Assembly (NCBI GenBank): GCA_003670475.1
Contig: QWRJ01000006.1
Span: 11,430-44,750 of the forward strand
DNA: 33,321 nt
Origin: Candidatus Limnocylindrus primus
Lineage (GTDB): Bacteria; Chloroflexota; Limnocylindria; Limnocylindrales; Limnocylindraceae
Direction of reading: 5' to 3'
The position numbers and the translations under genes are program-made. The notes beneath the pieces are model-generated. The model was not told the DNA's origin. It did not search any database and saw nothing but the letters and a program-made list of their open reading frames with translations. Below, in pieces: positions 20,139 to 29,391 of the stretch (within the stretch, counting starts at the first letter, position 1; each line of letters opens with the position of its first letter).

Positions 20139-21314
20139 TTAGCGACGGCGTCCGTCCAGGTGCGCACGAAGCGCCGCAGGGACGGCGTCCGCCTTCGCCC
20201 CACCCTCAGGGCGAACCACGACGATCTTGCTCGCATCAACGCTCGCCGCACGCGCGCCGTGCGCCGGATCGGCATCCCAGCGCGTGACGAAGGCGCCCGA
20301 GGTGTAGCCACCACCAAACGCCACGGTGCAGAAGACATCTCCAGGCTTCAGGCGCCCTGCGGCCACCGCCTCAGAGAGGGCGATCGGGATGCTCGCCGCT
20401 GAGGTGTTCCCGTACTTATCAAGGTTCACGAAGATCTGGTCCATCGGATAGTTGATCGCCTTGGAGACGTGTTCAATGATGCGGATGTTCGCCTGATGCG
20501 GAATCACGAGATTCACCTGTGACGGGGTGAGGCCGGCGCGCTCAATTGCAGCGGTCGCCACCGCCGCCATGGTGCGTGTTGCGTAGACGTACGTTTTTGC
20601 GCCATCCATCTTGATCAGCGGATCGGCGTTGTCGCCCGCGCCGCCAGGAATCCAGAGCGCGTAGGCGCCGCTCGGATCAGCAGAGAGTTCAAAGCTGAGC
20701 GTCCCTGGACGTGTTGTCCCCTCCTGTCCGGCGGGAAGTTCAAGCGCCTCCAGAACAATGGCGCCGGCACCATCACCGAAGAGGACGCACGTTGAGCGAT
20801 CGCTCCAATCAACGGAGCGTGAGAGCGTCTCCGCGCCAATGACGAGTGCGCGTTGACCGAGCCCTGCAGTGATGAAGCCGTGCGCAACCGCGTAGGCGTA
20901 GGCGAAACCGGAGCAGGCGGCGGATAGGTCAAAGGCGGCGGCGCGCGTGCTGCCGATCGCCCCCTTCACTAACACTGCTGTGCTCGGCATCAAGTGATCT
21001 GGCGTCAGTGTTGCCACCACGATCAGGTCAACGTCGTCGGCGCTGATCCCAGCAACGGCGAGTGCGCGCGCCGCCGCAATGGATGCCATGGAGGCGGTCG
21101 TCTCACCCTCCGCCGCAATGCGGCGCTCACGAATCCCCGTGCGCGTGGTAATCCATTCGTCGCTCGTCTCCACGATCTTCTCCAGATCCGCATTCGTCAA
21201 AATCGTGGACGGCACCTCATGCCCCCAGCCGATGATATGCGTGGTGCGGTTCGGCAGCTGCGCGCGACCGGTCGTCCCGCCAATGCGCTGCTCGTTCATG
21301 GCGTCTCCGCTCAT
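20139..21314 (-). CDS. fabH: 3-oxoacyl-ACP synthase III FabH (with C-terminal extension)
   Basis: Catalytic Cys in FDLSAACSGFAYA, VIPHQANIRI, NLDKYGNTSAASIPIAL; ~45 aa beyond the usual C-terminus. Confidence 0.94.
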   Translation of the reverse strand: MSGDAMNEQRIGGTTGRAQLPNRTTHIIGWGHEVPSTILTNADLEKIVETSDEWITTRTGIRERRIAAEGETTASMASIAAARALAVAGISADDVDLIVVATLTPDHLMPSTAVLVKGAIGSTRAAAFDLSAACSGFAYAYAVAHGFITAGLGQRALVIGAETLSRSVDWSDRSTCVLFGDGAGAIVLEALELPAGQEGTTRPGTLSFELSADPSGAYALWIPGGAGDNADPLIKMDGAKTYVYATRTMAAVATAAIERAGLTPSQVNLVIPHQANIRIIEHVSKAINYPMDQIFVNLDKYGNTSAASIPIALSEAVAAGRLKPGDVFCTVAFGGGYTSGAFVTRWDADPAHGARAASVDASKIVVVRPEGGAKADAVPAALRAHLDGRRR

Positions 21315-22108
21315 GACTCAAGCTCGATGATCGGCGACTTTGACTTCACGAGGCGGCCGTTCTCGGCAACGATGCGCACCACGCGCCCCGCCTTATCCGA
21401 CTTGATCTCGTTGAAGAGCTTCATCGCCTCAATCAGGCCGATCGGCTGACCAACGCTGATCGTCTGGCCGACCGCAATCATCGGATCGGCGCCTGGGGTT
21501 GCTGCGGCGTAGAAGATGCCGGTGAGCGGCGCGTTGACGAACACGCCACTCGGTGCGGCGGCGCCAGCGGCGGCTGCTCCTGTGGGGGCAGCAGAAGAGG
21601 GCGGCGCGGCGGTTGACGCCGCAGAAGCGGTTGACGTAGGTGCACCAGCGGCGAGAACGATCTGTCCGCCAGCAACGGCGGCGCGGCTGCGCACCACCAC
21701 GCGGGTGCCGCCAGAGGAGAGTTCAATTTCGGCGAGGCCGCTCCCATCCGCAACGGCGGCGAGTCGGTCGATCAGTTCCACCAGATCCGCTTCGTCGCTG
21801 GTGAGCGGCGCCTGCTCTGCCGTCTGACGTGGGATGCGTAGCTCGGGTGGCTGCGCGTTCAGGCGCGGCTGACCGCGGCGCGGTCGCGGCGGCGTAGTCT
21901 GCATCACGGGGCGCGGTTCGATGCGCTCTGCTGTACGACGCTCAGTGGTGAATCGCTCCACTGGCGGCGTGGATGGCTTCGCTGGGCTAATGCCGCTACT
22001 CGGTTGCGGCGCCGCGGCACCACCGCGCGCGCGTCGCGCCGCCTCACGCGCCGCATCCAGCGCCCGTAGCGCACTCTTCTGCAGTCGCTCGCGACGCTTC
22101 TCTGCCAT
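21311..22108 (-). CDS. accB: Biotin carboxyl carrier protein AccB (canonical, with long N-terminal extension)
   Basis: VGQPIGLIEAMKLFNEIKSDKAGRVV biotinyl motif and thumb loop GIFYAAATPGADPMIAVGQ; start MAEKRRERL overlaps the fabF stop (TGATG). The ORF track opens at 22123. Confidence 0.93.
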   Translation of the reverse strand: MAEKRRERLQKSALRALDAAREAARRARGGAAAPQPSSGISPAKPSTPPVERFTTERRTAERIEPRPVMQTTPPRPRRGQPRLNAQPPELRIPRQTAEQAPLTSDEADLVELIDRLAAVADGSGLAEIELSSGGTRVVVRSRAAVAGGQIVLAAGAPTSTASAASTAAPPSSAAPTGAAAAGAAAPSGVFVNAPLTGIFYAAATPGADPMIAVGQTISVGQPIGLIEAMKLFNEIKSDKAGRVVRIVAENGRLVKSKSPIIELES

Positions 22109-23418
22109 CAGCGACCCGTCCATTTTGCAAGAAGCAACGCCGCGTTCTGCCCGCCGAATCCGAACGCATTCACGAGCGCAAGGGCAACCTCTTGGTCACG
22201 CGGCGCGCCTGTGACAATGTCGAGCGCGCCAACGAGTGGGTCGGGGGCGCTGAGGTTGAGCGTGGCGTGGACGCGGCTGTCGCGCATCGCGCAGATGGTG
22301 GCGGCGGCGCCGAGCGCACCGGCGGCACCGAGCGTGTGGCCGATGTTCCCCTTGGTTGCGGTGATGCTGGCGCGCAACTGTGCGCGATCCGCCGATGCGG
22401 CGCTTGCGGCATCTGCCGCGCCAGTGAGGATGGTGCGGATGGCGTCGAGCTCCGCCTTATCGCCCTCTGGTGTTGAGGTGGCGTGCGCGTTGACGTGGTC
22501 AATCTCGCTCCCCGCGCGTCCCGCCTTCTCCAGCGCGCGACGTGCGGCGCGCACGGCGCCGTACCCGCCAGGGGCAGGGAGGGTGATGTGCTGCGCGTCC
22601 GCCGATGCGCCGTAGCCAACGATCTCGGCGAGCGGCGTGGCGCCGCGTGCAAGGGCGAGGTCGAGTCGCTCAAGAAGCAAGATGCCAGCGCCTTCGGACA
22701 TCACGAAGCCGTCGCGCGCGCTGTCGAACGGTCGCGATGCGGCGGCAGGATCGCCGCCCGCAGCGCTACTCCCACTTCGTGAAAGTGCACGCATATTGTT
22801 GAATCCGGCAATCACCACAGGGTGCAGCGCCGCTTCGGCACCACCAGCGAGTGCGCGCTCAGCATCACCACGACGAATCGTCTCGTAGGCTTCGCCAATG
22901 GCGTGACCGGCGGTGGCGCAGGCGCTGACTGGCCCAAACGATGGGCCTTGCGCATTGACGTGGATCGCAACTTCGCCCGCCGCCATATTGCCGATCGCTC
23001 CTGGAATCAAGAATGGCGAGACGCGACCCGCCCCCTTCTCGCCGTAGTTCAGCGCCTGTTCAAAGAGTGTCGTTGCACCACCAAGGCCTGAGCCGATGAT
23101 CGTTGCGGTGCCAAGGGCGAGCTCGTCGCTCAGCCGCGCTGGGAGACCTGCGGAGATGAGTGCCTCAACAGAAGCGGCGATCGCAAGGTGTGAGAAGCGA
23201 TCGAGTCGCTTGATCTGTTTCGCCTCAAGGATGTCGGATGGATCAAAGTTCGGGACCTGTCCGCCGAAGTCCACCTCTTGTCCGGTCAGGTCGAGGCCTT
23301 CAAGCCGGCGAATGCCAGAGCGTCCCGCGAGGAGACCGCTCCAGAGCGCATCCACGCCGCGACCGAGTGGGGAGAGCGCCCCCATGCCGGTGACAACAAC
23401 GCGATGCGCCGTGTTCAT
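22108..23418 (-). CDS. fabF: 3-oxoacyl-ACP synthase II FabF
   Basis: Catalytic Cys in GPVSACATAGHAIGEA, NAHATSTPEGDKAE, TKGNIGHTLGAAGALG. Confidence 0.95.
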   Translation of the reverse strand: MNTAHRVVVTGMGALSPLGRGVDALWSGLLAGRSGIRRLEGLDLTGQEVDFGGQVPNFDPSDILEAKQIKRLDRFSHLAIAASVEALISAGLPARLSDELALGTATIIGSGLGGATTLFEQALNYGEKGAGRVSPFLIPGAIGNMAAGEVAIHVNAQGPSFGPVSACATAGHAIGEAYETIRRGDAERALAGGAEAALHPVVIAGFNNMRALSRSGSSAAGGDPAAASRPFDSARDGFVMSEGAGILLLERLDLALARGATPLAEIVGYGASADAQHITLPAPGGYGAVRAARRALEKAGRAGSEIDHVNAHATSTPEGDKAELDAIRTILTGAADAASAASADRAQLRASITATKGNIGHTLGAAGALGAAATICAMRDSRVHATLNLSAPDPLVGALDIVTGAPRDQEVALALVNAFGFGGQNAALLLAKWTGR

Positions 23419-24180: not shown

Positions 24181-24666
24181 TTATGACGCGGTGGACCCGG
24201 ATGGGTGCGGGAGTGCGCTCTCTGGCGGAATGACAAACGTAATCGTTGCGCTGCAGGCCTTCTCGCCGTTGACGGAGGCGGTTCCAACGGCACTCCCCAT
24301 GCGTGAGCCGAGCTTCTGCATCACGATCTCCAGCTGCAACGTTTCGCCAGGGGTCACCATGCGCGTGAAGCGGCACTCTTCAATCTTGGCGAAGACGCCG
24401 AGTCGGTTGCCGAACCCTTCGGTACGCGCCACATAGACCGCCATCGCCTGCGCGAGTGCTTCAACTTGGAGGACGCCAGGCATGATCGGGCCGACTGGCT
24501 GTGGGAAGTGGCCGGGGACCCAGAAGGCGTCGGCGCGGACGTCTAACTCCGCCACAAGACGCTGCGCCGCGCGATCTTCAGAAACGACGCGGCTCAGCAG
24601 GAGGAAGGGGGCGCGATGCGGGATCAGCGCCTCAATCTGCTGCTGGTTCAGAAGCGGCTCACTCAT
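24181..24666 (-). CDS. fabZ: 3-hydroxyacyl-ACP dehydratase FabZ
   Basis: IPHRAPFLLLSRV, VPGHFPQPVGPIMPGVLQVEALAQ. Confidence 0.94.
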   Translation of the reverse strand: MSEPLLNQQQIEALIPHRAPFLLLSRVVSEDRAAQRLVAELDVRADAFWVPGHFPQPVGPIMPGVLQVEALAQAMAVYVARTEGFGNRLGVFAKIEECRFTRMVTPGETLQLEIVMQKLGSRMGSAVGTASVNGEKACSATITFVIPPESALPHPSGSTAS

Positions 24667-24678
24667 GCGACCTCCATG

Positions 24679-26070
24679 CTAAGCACCCGCCTGGTCGCCT
24701 GAACGACGCGGCGCGGCGGCGAGGATGGCTGCGGTGCCAACGTCATCGAGCATGCTGGTGGTGACGCCACCACTCAAGAAAGACGGGCTTTCGAGGAGGC
24801 CGAGGAAGAAGTCGCGCGTGGTCGCCACACCGTCAATCTCTAGTTCGCGGAGTGCGGCGCGGGAGCGTGCGATCGCCTCTTCCCGCGTTGCCCCCCAGAC
24901 AATCAGCTTGCCGAGGAGGCTGTCGTAGTACGGCGGCACTTCGTAGCCCGCGTAGAGGTGCGAGTCGAATCGCACCCATGGGCCGCTCGGCGAACGATAT
25001 GCGCTGATCTCCCCCGCCTGCGGCTGGAAGTTATTTGCCGGATCTTCTGCCGTGATGCGGAACTCAATGGCGTGGCCGCGCGGCTGAATCTCGCGCTGCG
25101 TCATTGGCATACGCGCGCCACTGGCGAGTGTGATCTGCAGCGCCACAAGGTCCACGCCAGTCACCACCTCGGTCACGGGATGCTCCACCTGGATGCGGCA
25201 GTTGATCTCAATAAAGTACGGCTTCCCGTCTGGGCCCACCAAGAATTCAAGCGTCCCCACGTTGCGATAGCCGGCGGCGCCGATCGCCTTTGCGGCGCGC
25301 GCAAGGAAATCTTCGCGGACGCGCGGCGTGAGCGCCGTGGACGGCGACTCTTCAACGAGCTTCTGGTGACGTCGCTGTAGCGAACAGTCGCGCTCGCCAA
25401 AGTGGAGCGCCGTCCCTTCACTATCAACCGCGATCTGCACCTCAACATGGTGCGTTGCGCTGAGATACTTCTCCAAATAAATGGATCCATCACCGAAGGC
25501 GGCCTGCGCCTCTTGCGCGCAGATGGAGAAGTTCTTGCTGAGCTCTGCGGCGTCCTGTGCCACGCGCATCCCACGGCCGCCACCACCTGCGGATGCCTTG
25601 AGGATCACCGGATAGCCAATCTTCTTCGCCGCATCTAGTGCGGCTGACTCATCTGCGACCACGCCGTCTGAACCAGGAATGGTGGGGAGGCCGTGCTTGG
25701 CGAGCAGCGCGCGTGTGGCCGCCTTGGAGTGGAACTTCTCAAGGATCGGCGCCGATGGCCCAATGAAGGTGAGCTTGTGCGCCGCAACCGCTTCGGCGAA
25801 TGCGGCGTTCTCGGAGAGGAAGCCGTAGCCCGGGTGGATGGCGTCGCAGCCGGTGGCGAGTGCCGCGGAGATGATCGCGGGGGCGGAGAGGTAACTCTGC
25901 TTCGCGTCGGCTGGCCCAATGCAGACCGCCTCGTCGGCAACCAAGACCGCGCGCGAGTCCGCATCCGCCTCGCTGTAGGCGACCACCGCCTCAAGGCCAA
26001 GCTGGCGGCAGGCGCGCAGGATGCGCAGCGCAATCTCGCCACGATTCGCAATCAGGACGCGCTTGATCAC
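24679..26070 (-). CDS. accC: Biotin carboxylase AccC
   Basis: IKRVLIANRGEIALRILRACRQLG, KASAGGGGRGMRVA, YFIEINCRIQVEHPVTEVVTGVDLV. Confidence 0.96.
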   Translation of the reverse strand: MIKRVLIANRGEIALRILRACRQLGLEAVVAYSEADADSRAVLVADEAVCIGPADAKQSYLSAPAIISAALATGCDAIHPGYGFLSENAAFAEAVAAHKLTFIGPSAPILEKFHSKAATRALLAKHGLPTIPGSDGVVADESAALDAAKKIGYPVILKASAGGGGRGMRVAQDAAELSKNFSICAQEAQAAFGDGSIYLEKYLSATHHVEVQIAVDSEGTALHFGERDCSLQRRHQKLVEESPSTALTPRVREDFLARAAKAIGAAGYRNVGTLEFLVGPDGKPYFIEINCRIQVEHPVTEVVTGVDLVALQITLASGARMPMTQREIQPRGHAIEFRITAEDPANNFQPQAGEISAYRSPSGPWVRFDSHLYAGYEVPPYYDSLLGKLIVWGATREEAIARSRAALRELEIDGVATTRDFFLGLLESPSFLSGGVTTSMLDDVGTAAILAAAPRRSGDQAGA

Positions 26071-26582
26071 TTGGACCCCTCGCCGATTGACTCAAGCAGG
26101 AAGATCTCCTGGCCGTACTCCACCGGATCGCCAGTGGCAGACTTCAGCGCCGCCACGATCCCGCCGTGCGTTGCACGGACTTCGCTCGGAATGCCGAGCA
26201 CCTCAACGGTGGCAACGAGCGCACCCTTCGCCACCTTGGCGCCAACGTGAATCTCCTTGGAGAGCGTCAGGAATCCCACCGCCGTTGCGCGCACCGCATG
26301 CTTGCGCGCAGCGCTAACGGAACTCGGCGCCGGCGCCGCCGCGGCAGCCTGCCCTGCAGCGCCTTGCGCTGGAGCACCAAACGAAGCGGCCTGCTGTACG
26401 CCGAGCGACTCAGACCGAACGCGCACCGTTGCGCCGTTTCGCTCAACCTCAATCTCGCCGAGGCCGGTCTCTGCAAGGCGATCAACGAGCACGGGGAGGA
26501 GTGCGTCAATGAGAGCGCCGAGCTCTTCGGCGTTCCCTTCGCCGCTCACGTTGGCGTTTGCAAGGTCACGAAACTTTGCCAT
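26067..26582 (-). CDS. BCCP-like biotinyl/lipoyl-domain protein lacking the biotinylated lysine (BADC-like candidate)
   Basis: Same layout as AccB (N-terminal LVDRLAETGLGEIEVERNGATVRVRS, Ala/Pro linker, C-terminal biotinyl-like fold VGAKVAKGALVATVEVLGIPSEVRATHGGIVAALKSATGDPVEYGQEIFLLES), but EAMKL is replaced by EVLGI. Confidence 0.85.
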   Translation of the reverse strand: MAKFRDLANANVSGEGNAEELGALIDALLPVLVDRLAETGLGEIEVERNGATVRVRSESLGVQQAASFGAPAQGAAGQAAAAAPAPSSVSAARKHAVRATAVGFLTLSKEIHVGAKVAKGALVATVEVLGIPSEVRATHGGIVAALKSATGDPVEYGQEIFLLESIGEGSK

Positions 26583-26584
26583 CG

Positions 26585-28564
26585 TTATGCCCCCGCACTA
26601 TCGCGCTCGATCTCGTCGATCCAGTCGTCGCCAACACCAGCGCCAACGAGGTCGCGATCGAGGCCGAAGAGTGAACGGATCGCGCCGGTGATCCCCTTCT
26701 TCTTGATCGGCGCTTCATCGAACGCGCCAAAGGCGCGGTAGCGCGCGTAGCGCGCGGTGAGAAGTTCGTTGAGGTCTTTCATTGATTCAAGTTCGTCAAA
26801 GGCGGCGCTCGCCGTCTCCCAGATGGCGCGCGCCAGCGTCACCGTGGACTCTGCGGAGAGCGTCTCAGGCTCCAGGATGATGCCGTCTACTACGCCGAGC
26901 GCCACCTGCTCTGGTGCTGTGATGCGCAGCGCGCGCGCCGCGGCGGGAGCCTTCTCGGAGGTACGGAAGAGGATGGCGGCGCACCCTTCTGGGCTGATCA
27001 CCGAGTAGTAGGCGTGCTCCAGCGCGTAGACGCGGTCGCCAGCGGCAATCGCGAGGGCGCCTCCTGAACCACCCTCGCCCGTGATCACGGTGACGATCGG
27101 GGTGCGGAGTTCGGTCATGCGGCTGATGGAGGCGGCGATCGCCTCGGCGATCCCGCGCTGCTCGGACTCGGGGCCTGGGTGCGCCCCTGGGGTGTCCACG
27201 AGCGTCAGGACGGGAAGGTGCAGTCTCTCGGCGAGCTCAAAGGCGCGCATCGCCTTCCGGTAACCCTCAGGGTGCGGCATGCCGAAGCCGCGACGGATGT
27301 TGCTCTCCGTGTCGCGACCCTTCTGCGTTCCCACCACCACGATGCGTCGTCCATCAATACGTGCAATGCCAGCAACAATCGCGCCGTCATCACCAGCGCG
27401 TCGATCGCCGCGCAGTTCAACAAAGTCGGCGTTCAACGCCTCAAGGAACTCTGCGGTGCGTGGTCGCTCGGGATCTCGTGCGCGGCGCACATGACTCCAC
27501 GCCTCCTCCTCTTCAAGGTGCGGCCCGAGTTCTGGTGCAAGGTGTCGATCACGCTGGTTCTCCAAGATCTGGTCGGCGCGATTCGCCACGCGCGTTGCGG
27601 CCGAAGCAACTGGCGCCAAGACGCTGCCAATCATTGTGCCCGCACCTTGCGCAACACCAGTCACCACGCCACCAATCAGTCCAACGCCTGGAATGTTGAT
27701 CTGCTGATAGAGCGGCACGGCAGGAGCTGGAAGTGGCTGCAACAGACTGAGTGCGCGAATGATCCATGGCCGCAGGTTGCCGCGCGCAACGATCGCATCA
27801 ATGAAGCCGGTCTCCAGCAAGAACTCTGAACGCTGGAATCCGGCGGGAAGTTCGTCGCCAATCGTTCCAGCGGAGACGCGCGCGCCGCTGAATCCAATCA
27901 GCGCGTTCGGCTCCGCAACATTCAGATCGCCGAGTGCGCCAAATGATGCAATGGTGCCGCCAGTCGTTGGATCGGTGAGGAGACTAATGAATGTGCCGCC
28001 GCTCGACTTCAGTCGCGCAATTGCGGCGAGTGTCTTCGGCAGCTGCATCAGCGCGTAGGTCCCCTCCTGCATGCGTGCGCCACCAGAGGCGGAGACAATG
28101 AGCAGCGGAAGGCGGCGTTCGGTGGCGAGTTCGGCGGCGCGCGCCACCTTCTCTCCAACCACGGAGCCCATCGAGCCGCCCATGAAGAAGAAGTCCATCA
28201 CCACAAGGGAGACTTCGATCCCGCCAATGGAGGCGGTGCCGCGGATCGCCGCGTCGCGTTCGCCGGTCAGCTTGCGGGCGGTGGCGGCACGCTCGGGGTA
28301 GGGCTTGGAGTCGGTGAAGACGATCGGGTCGAGGGAGACGAGGCTCGCGTCCAGTTCGGCGAACGAACCCTCGTCCACCAGCTGGGCGATCCGCTCCCGG
28401 GCTGGGACGCGGAAGTGGTGCCCGCAGGATGTGCAGACGCGGAGGCCCTTCTCGAGGCTCTTCTTAAAGAGGAGCTCGGAGCACCCGGGGCAGCGGAGCC
28501 AGAGATCGGGCTCGCCTCCAGGGGTCGCCTTGCGGCGCTTGAACGGGTTGCTAAAGCTCGGCAC
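26585..28564 (-). CDS. accDA: Fused acetyl-CoA carboxylase carboxyltransferase beta-alpha (AccD-AccA)
   Basis: N-terminal AccD Zn finger CPGC...CTSC, SGGARMQEGTYALMQ; C-terminal AccA LVDTPGAHPGPESEQRGIAEAIAASI, GEGGSGGALAIAAGDRVYALEHAYYSVISPEGCAAI; GTG start. Confidence 0.95.
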   Translation of the reverse strand: MPSFSNPFKRRKATPGGEPDLWLRCPGCSELLFKKSLEKGLRVCTSCGHHFRVPARERIAQLVDEGSFAELDASLVSLDPIVFTDSKPYPERAATARKLTGERDAAIRGTASIGGIEVSLVVMDFFFMGGSMGSVVGEKVARAAELATERRLPLLIVSASGGARMQEGTYALMQLPKTLAAIARLKSSGGTFISLLTDPTTGGTIASFGALGDLNVAEPNALIGFSGARVSAGTIGDELPAGFQRSEFLLETGFIDAIVARGNLRPWIIRALSLLQPLPAPAVPLYQQINIPGVGLIGGVVTGVAQGAGTMIGSVLAPVASAATRVANRADQILENQRDRHLAPELGPHLEEEEAWSHVRRARDPERPRTAEFLEALNADFVELRGDRRAGDDGAIVAGIARIDGRRIVVVGTQKGRDTESNIRRGFGMPHPEGYRKAMRAFELAERLHLPVLTLVDTPGAHPGPESEQRGIAEAIAASISRMTELRTPIVTVITGEGGSGGALAIAAGDRVYALEHAYYSVISPEGCAAILFRTSEKAPAAARALRITAPEQVALGVVDGIILEPETLSAESTVTLARAIWETASAAFDELESMKDLNELLTARYARYRAFGAFDEAPIKKKGITGAIRSLFGLDRDLVGAGVGDDWIDEIERDSAGA

Positions 28565-28596: not shown

Positions 28597-29391
28597 CTAC
28601 GGGGTGGCGGCTCGCACGACTCGGGCCACTTCCCCTGTGGAGATGGCACGCTCCGTGCCGTCCACGCTCAGAATGAGCGCCCCAGAGCTGCCGTCGAATC
28701 CCACCACGCGACCCTGCAGGTGCCCCTCGGCGCCAAGATCCAACTCCACCTCCCACCCATCCAGCAGCTGGCGTGCACGCCAACTCGAGACGTCAAAGCG
28801 ACCAGATCGAAGCGCCGCCAAGCGCCCTTCAAGGCGCGCCACTAAATCGTCAAAAATTGCCTCGCGATCCACGGGGCGACCAGAGGCGAGCTCCAGTGAC
28901 GTTGCCGTTGCGGCGAGGCTCGGGTCCAACCGCGACGGATCGCCACGCACATTGAGCCCAATGCCAACGATCAGTGTTGCGTTCGGACCACCAAGATCCG
29001 AAGCTTCCATCAACGCGCCGCCAACCTTGCGGAATCCGGTCGTCACGCCACCCTCTTCGTTGCGCAAGACCAGATCGTTCGGCCACTTCAGTGCAAGCCC
29101 GCCAATCAGGAGAGCCGCCGCATCTTCCGCCGCATCGGCAAGTGCGAGCGCGAACTCCGCACCAACGCGCCAGGCGCGTTCAGGCTCCGTGGGGAGTGAG
29201 TCGGCGCGGACGGCGAGGCTCATCAGCAGCGAACCACCAGGAGCATCAAGCCAGGTGCGACCGGAGCGCCCACGCCCCGCGCTCTGCGTCTCGGCGCGAA
29301 TCAGGAGCGGCGTTGCTGCACCTGCGGCGAGCCGCTCGCTTGCAATATCGTTGGTTGAGGTGACTGCGTCGAGTCGCTCGACGTGGATCAG
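28597..29391 (-). CDS. birA: Biotin--[acetyl-CoA-carboxylase] ligase BirA (catalytic type, no HTH), probable CTG start
   Basis: Extending the ORF track upstream in frame gives (L/M)IHVERLDAVTSTNDIASERLAAGAATPLLIRAETQSAGRGRSGRTWLDAPGGSLLMSLAV, the conserved biotin ligase N-terminus, then KWPNDLVL, VGIGLNV. Confidence 0.88.
   Translation of the reverse strand: MIHVERLDAVTSTNDIASERLAAGAATPLLIRAETQSAGRGRSGRTWLDAPGGSLLMSLAVRADSLPTEPERAWRVGAEFALALADAAEDAAALLIGGLALKWPNDLVLRNEEGGVTTGFRKVGGALMEASDLGGPNATLIVGIGLNVRGDPSRLDPSLAATATSLELASGRPVDREAIFDDLVARLEGRLAALRSGRFDVSSWRARQLLDGWEVELDLGAEGHLQGRVVGFDGSSGALILSVDGTERAISTGEVARVVRAATP

Follow-up and report, generated by a model that had tools for sequence, protein, structure and literature searches.

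A Lys-less homologue of the biotin carrier AccB in the Chloroflexota as a putative non-catalytic subunit of ACC

The acc locus and its Lys-less BCCP paralogue

We analyzed a stretch of 33,321 nucleotides (henceforth the window) of Candidatus Limnocylindrus (named in PMC6169038), taken from a source assembly of 0.98 Mb that is 70% complete. An open reading frame with an ATG start and a product of 171 residues is packed between accC and accDA (Table 1): its ATG begins 2 nt past the accDA stop (TAA, 26587-26585), and its TGA overlaps the GTG of accC by 4 nt (GTGA). The product (P0001) is a paralogue of the AccB coded for by the same window, with a biotinyl motif that reads EVLGIPSEV against EAMKLFNEI, such that Gly130 takes the place of Lys230. 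An earlier note, made from the sequence alone, had proposed an AccB paralogue between accC and accDA in which the biotin-accepting Lys has become Gly, and both the position and the substitution hold. As an identical copy is present in a second genome (G016), and the Gly form recurs in 12 genomes of the genus, Gly130 is not a sequencing error.

Table 1. Features of the acc–fab region of the window
Feature	Positions	Strand	Basis and remarks
fabH	20139..21314	-	translation; homologues co-located in relatives
Partner AccB, FNE type, 265 aa, EAMKLFNEI (Lys230 codon 21421-21419)	21311..22108	-	between fabF and fabH
fabF	22108..23418	-	translation; homologues co-located in relatives
fabZ	24181..24666	-	FabA-like domain
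accC, biotin carboxylase	24679..26070	-	profile matches; sole one found in this genome
Lys-less BCCP paralogue (P0001)	26067..26582	-	open reading frame and translation, BCCP homology, AlphaFold2 model, PDB fold match
VEYGQ motif of P0001	26109..26123	-	column-by-column comparison
Gly130 codon GGC at the biotinyl-Lys position	26193..26195	-	turn of the hairpin formed by strands 122-128 and 131-136
Shortened thumb loop FLTLSKEI	26250..26273	-	six residues shorter than in AccB; conserved Tyr and Pro absent
N-terminal BCCP-type segment (helix 18-39, hairpin 43-56)	26415..26531	-	TIGR00531 from profile position 9; structure model
accDA, carboxyltransferase beta-alpha fusion	26585..28564	-	profile matches
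birA-like biotin ligase	28597..29391	-	motifs and relatives; probable CTG start

The Lys-less protein is recognized by the Pfam Biotin_lipoyl profile (3.7e-6, above the gathering score) and by the NCBIfam BCCP profile TIGR00531 (1.7e-10). The latter match spans positions 9-155 of 156 and covers the N-terminal segment, in keeping with the claim that this BCCP-like part is retained. Its score of 41.6 bits lies far below the curated cut-off of 115.2 bits, while all 46 of the 46 aligned Lys-less homologues match TIGR00531 at E <= 0.001, and a profile of the family finds E. coli BCCP (4hr7_B) in the PDB at 3.1e-20. An AlphaFold2 model from the 46-homologue alignment predicts a biotinyl beta-barrel at residues 94-164 (pLDDT about 97), whose biotinyl hairpin carries the Gly at its tip; an N-terminal helix and hairpin are modelled less surely. 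By fold, this model matches the E. coli biotinyl domain 1bdo best among PDB structures (rmsd 1.3, TM 0.81 by target), and Arabidopsis BCCP1 (9a87) likewise ranks among the leading matches. A prediction lacking the biotinyl fold had been named as telling against the earlier proposal, and the predicted fold is present. The protein shares with E. coli AccB/BCCP (4HR7, 1BDO; TIGR00531) the fold, the N-terminal segment, the linker and the VEYGQ region, but differs from bacterial AccB/BCCP in lacking the biotinyl Lys, the thumb Tyr and Pro, and a score that reaches the curated threshold of the family.

The thumb was said in the earlier note to be apparently missing. This is borne out in the class of the window, where the loop is shortened by six residues; elsewhere its length is often kept, and it is the Tyr and mostly the Pro that are gone. 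Both residues matter for the function of E. coli BCCP (Cronan 2001, as cited in PMC11926652).

In the model of the partner AccB, the parts of the Lys-less protein recur together with a long N-terminal helix. This extra helix (~28 residues, Arg/Ala-rich) has a high pLDDT; the long linker after it is modelled with low confidence. In the birA-like gene, which Pfam did not recognize, no ATG, GTG or TTG is present upstream of the biotin-binding motif; the likely start is a CTG overlapping the lysC stop (CTGA).

Spread and selection of the Lys-less gene in the Chloroflexota

We searched 400 Chloroflexota genomes, an uneven sample that includes incomplete MAGs, with profiles and then read the matches by sequence. 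Lys-less BCCPs were verified in this way in 110 genomes from 22 families. None of these 110 genomes has a Lys at the biotinyl position of the Lys-less homologue, so that relatives with a restored Lys, which would have spoken against the earlier proposal, are absent from the clade. Instead, the turn residue is Gly in most and Asn in all members read from f21, a Ktedonobacteria-like family, with Arg, Gln or Asp in the remainder; the homologues in the genus and order of the window read V[DEN][VL]LG or close variants, all with Gly. Since Gly, Asn and Asp fit a tight turn, this pattern suggests that the hairpin was kept and the carrier function lost.

The intact predicted biotinyl/lipoyl fold would also suit a protein that is still a swinging-arm carrier, with biotin, lipoyl or a different group borne by another residue. 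However, a lipoyl-accepting Lys at the hairpin turn is absent from the Lys-less proteins by both motif reading and column comparison, and no Lys is conserved near the hairpin. Columns with more than 25% Lys occur only before the linker, in the thumb and near residue 118, and in all of them the Lys is mixed with Arg or Glu. A lipoyl carrier, which the earlier note had listed as a competing identity, or a carrier using another Lys was rejected on this lack of a conserved Lys, and we regard a carrier working through any other residue as very improbable.

Between close relatives, the dN/dS of the Lys-less gene is 0.04-0.15, rising to at most 0.33 at near-saturated distances, and is comparable to that of AccB (0.14-0.37). 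Loss of a catalytic residue is a typical first step of decay, but the frame is open and the motif conserved across 110 genomes, dN/dS is low, and an identical copy occurs in another assembly, which leaves a decaying duplicate or assembly artefact with next to no probability. A pseudogene or frame error was ruled out on the same three grounds. Thus, the absence of decay, argued earlier from the intact frame and the 4-nt overlap with accC, extends well beyond the window, and judged from its distribution and substitutions the gene is evidently old and under selection.

The packed order accDA–Lys-less gene–accC is found throughout the family of the window and its sister family. In three more families of the same class, the Lys-less gene lies beside accD-accA, with accC next to it or nearby where the contig reaches that far. 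At least one gene separates the Lys-less gene from accC at loci L107-L113 (families f4 and f5), as opposed to the packed order of the window. Outside the class, the acc genes do not adjoin the Lys-less gene.

Two types of AccB and the origin of the Lys-less gene

The Lys-bearing AccBs of the phylum fall into a canonical MNE type (EAMK[IMV]MNE) and an FNE type (E[AT]MKxFNE). Typing by exact matches to DNA patterns, a method that overlooks variants, assigned 139 of the 400 genomes to the FNE type and 55 to the MNE type, with an overlap of 0. The biotin-bearing AccB of genomes with a Lys-less gene is of the FNE type (EAMKxFNEI) and adjoins fabF. The canonical MNE-type AccB of the Chloroflexota usually lies between pepP-efp and xseA, and flanking efp or xseA was seen again in 15 MNE genomes; a search of these 15 with the Lys-less profile found no Lys-less BCCP. 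Outside the class of the window, the Lys-less gene has the context pepP-efp–gene–xseA in nearly all families read, the exception being f13. Its occupation of the canonical accB site makes it the positional orthologue of AccB, with the Lys lost.

The distance from the acc genes outside the class of the window might be taken to mean that the protein has left ACC, with its BCCP fold binding another partner or ligand or serving some control input that has nothing to do with ACC assembly. We think this quite unlikely: the place of the gene away from acc is no more than the ancestral position of accB, within the class of the window five families have it in the acc operon, and both VEYGQ and the N-terminal segment have been retained.

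In a tree computed without the motif columns, the Chloroflexota Lys-less proteins fall on one side of a single branch (support 86/88) and the FNE-type AccBs form a clade (99/96). The alignment is short (163-165 columns), and the support for a single loss of the Lys is moderate. The simplest history would be a duplication of accB, after which the role of biotin carrier passed to the new copy, the one next to fabF within the fab cluster. The original would have lost its biotin-accepting Lys, apparently once in the Lys-less lineage of the phylum, and would have been kept along with its BCCP fold, N-terminal segment and VEYGQ face. In the class of the window it would then have moved to its place between accDA and accC.

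A column comparison of the three kinds of protein points to complementary losses. Canonical AccB has the Lys, the thumb Tyr and Pro, and VEYGQ (93-100%). The Lys-less proteins have lost the Lys and the thumb Tyr, and mostly the Pro, but retain VEYGQ at 94-99% (V98, E95, Y96, G99 and Q94 percent), bearing out the earlier observation that the GDPVEYGQ region is kept. Conversely, their FNE partners possess the Lys, Tyr and Pro at 100% and have lost the E and Y of VEYGQ. Judged by these columns, each copy on its own is an incomplete AccB, although the loss of E and Y in the FNE type could also be drift. The spread over 22 families, the identity of the Lys-less gene with the original AccB by position and the reciprocal loss in the partner go beyond what the earlier note had proposed.

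Lys-bearing AccBs with VEYGQ were seen at L166 (genome G134, family f34) and at L168 and L185, two copies in one genome (G181, family f49). As far as seen, these two families have Lys-bearing copies only and no Lys-less copy; these copies possibly represent the state before the loss of the Lys, or transferred genes. In one FNE genome (G306), a fragmented assembly, the Lys-less gene was not seen.

A putative non-catalytic subunit of ACC

Plant BADC1-3 are BCCP homologues without a biotinylation motif that stand beside the biotinylated BCCP of heteromeric ACC (PMC11926652). They have been described as both inhibitor and glue, badc2/3 mutants are embryo-lethal (PMC11926652; PMC12873504; PMC7712654), and BADC is regarded in one paper as a feature of plant heteromeric ACCase alone (PMC11926652). 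The Lys-less protein likewise has no biotinylation motif and coexists with a Lys-bearing BCCP and a single biotin carboxylase; one such domain was found in the 70% complete genome of the window, and a congener with 90% completeness also yielded one. Hence AccB and the Lys-less protein, if both are ACC subunits, would share one AccC. As far as sequence can tell, the Lys-less protein may work like BADC. The likeness drawn here is one of features: plant BADC is plastid-targeted, whereas the Lys-less gene is bacterial, lies inside a Chloroflexota clade and is located either within the acc operon or at the ancestral site of accB, the latter in common with canonical Chloroflexota AccB. The label "BADC-like" given earlier thus fits as a possible way of working but not as a statement of ancestry.

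We favor the Lys-less gene coding for an obligate, non-catalytic subunit of ACC descended from the original Chloroflexota AccB, probably a permanent one and a bacterial counterpart of plant BADC. The protein would assemble with biotinylated AccB on AccC, giving mixed BCCP oligomers, and would hold or orient the ACC complex, as proposed for the plant BADC "glue"; that it belongs to the complex, forms mixed oligomers and acts in assembly we infer from the comparisons above. In a broader form, to which we give even chances, BCCP function in many Chloroflexota with heteromeric ACC would be divided over two subunits, each obligate and dependent on the other, with the ancestral AccB structural and devoid of its Lys and a second AccB keeping the biotin but not the conserved face. 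Such a division would be an ancient invention of bacteria that parallels BADC and probably arose independently.

Alternatively, as first proposed for BADC, the Lys-less protein might be a negative regulator that lowers ACC by competing with biotinylated AccB for AccC. The same fold without the biotin site would make a dead competitor, plant BADC is reported to compete with BCCP for BC (PMC7712654), and the operon position adjoins accC. However, a gene retained across 22 families, a streamlined genome of ~1.1 Mb among them, is more readily seen as an obligate part than as an optional brake, and of the two proteins only the Lys-less one retains a motif that has been lost from the partner AccB; we therefore consider such a regulator unlikely. 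Non-catalytic subunits that are, to our knowledge, not BCCP homologues are the epsilon subunits of actinobacterial acyl-CoA carboxylases. Their likeness to the proposed obligate subunit lies in being a non-catalytic assembly subunit or "glue" (as cited in PMC11926652).

We found no report of a bacterial Lys-less AccB in the open-licence literature. One genome (G170), which we take to be that of Chloroflexus aurantiacus, has a canonical MNE AccB, and no Lys-less paralogue was found in it with the Lys-less profile. If this identification is right, its canonical type may explain why the pair of AccB and Lys-less protein has gone unnoticed. The ACC of Chloroflexus aurantiacus, from the same phylum, is also heteromeric but differs by a BC-BCCP fusion (PMC11077971).

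The role of a BCCP without biotin in heteromeric ACC, inhibitor or glue, is debated for plants, and the Chloroflexota offer a natural test in which lineages with a single complete AccB can be set against those with a split pair. The pair would also set the residues of catalysis apart from those of a retained structural face. For annotation, an accB-like gene at the efp locus or adjoining accC in genomes of the Lys-less kind should not be read as the biotin carrier, and reconstitution of ACC from Chloroflexota may fail without the second subunit.

A search of plasmids was empty. In a scan of genome contigs, the remaining matches were ordinary Lys-bearing BCCPs or multidomain carboxylases, except for a second, unrelated Lys-less BCCP in Psychrobacter aestuarii (L040:9863-10294). 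Here the motif reads IEELTRLLPVV, with Thr replacing the Lys, and VEYGQ is retained. The gene ends the run accB-accC-pxpB-pxpC-LamB/YcsF-Nramp, which suggests that Lys-less BCCPs also arose with 5-oxoprolinase-type operons.
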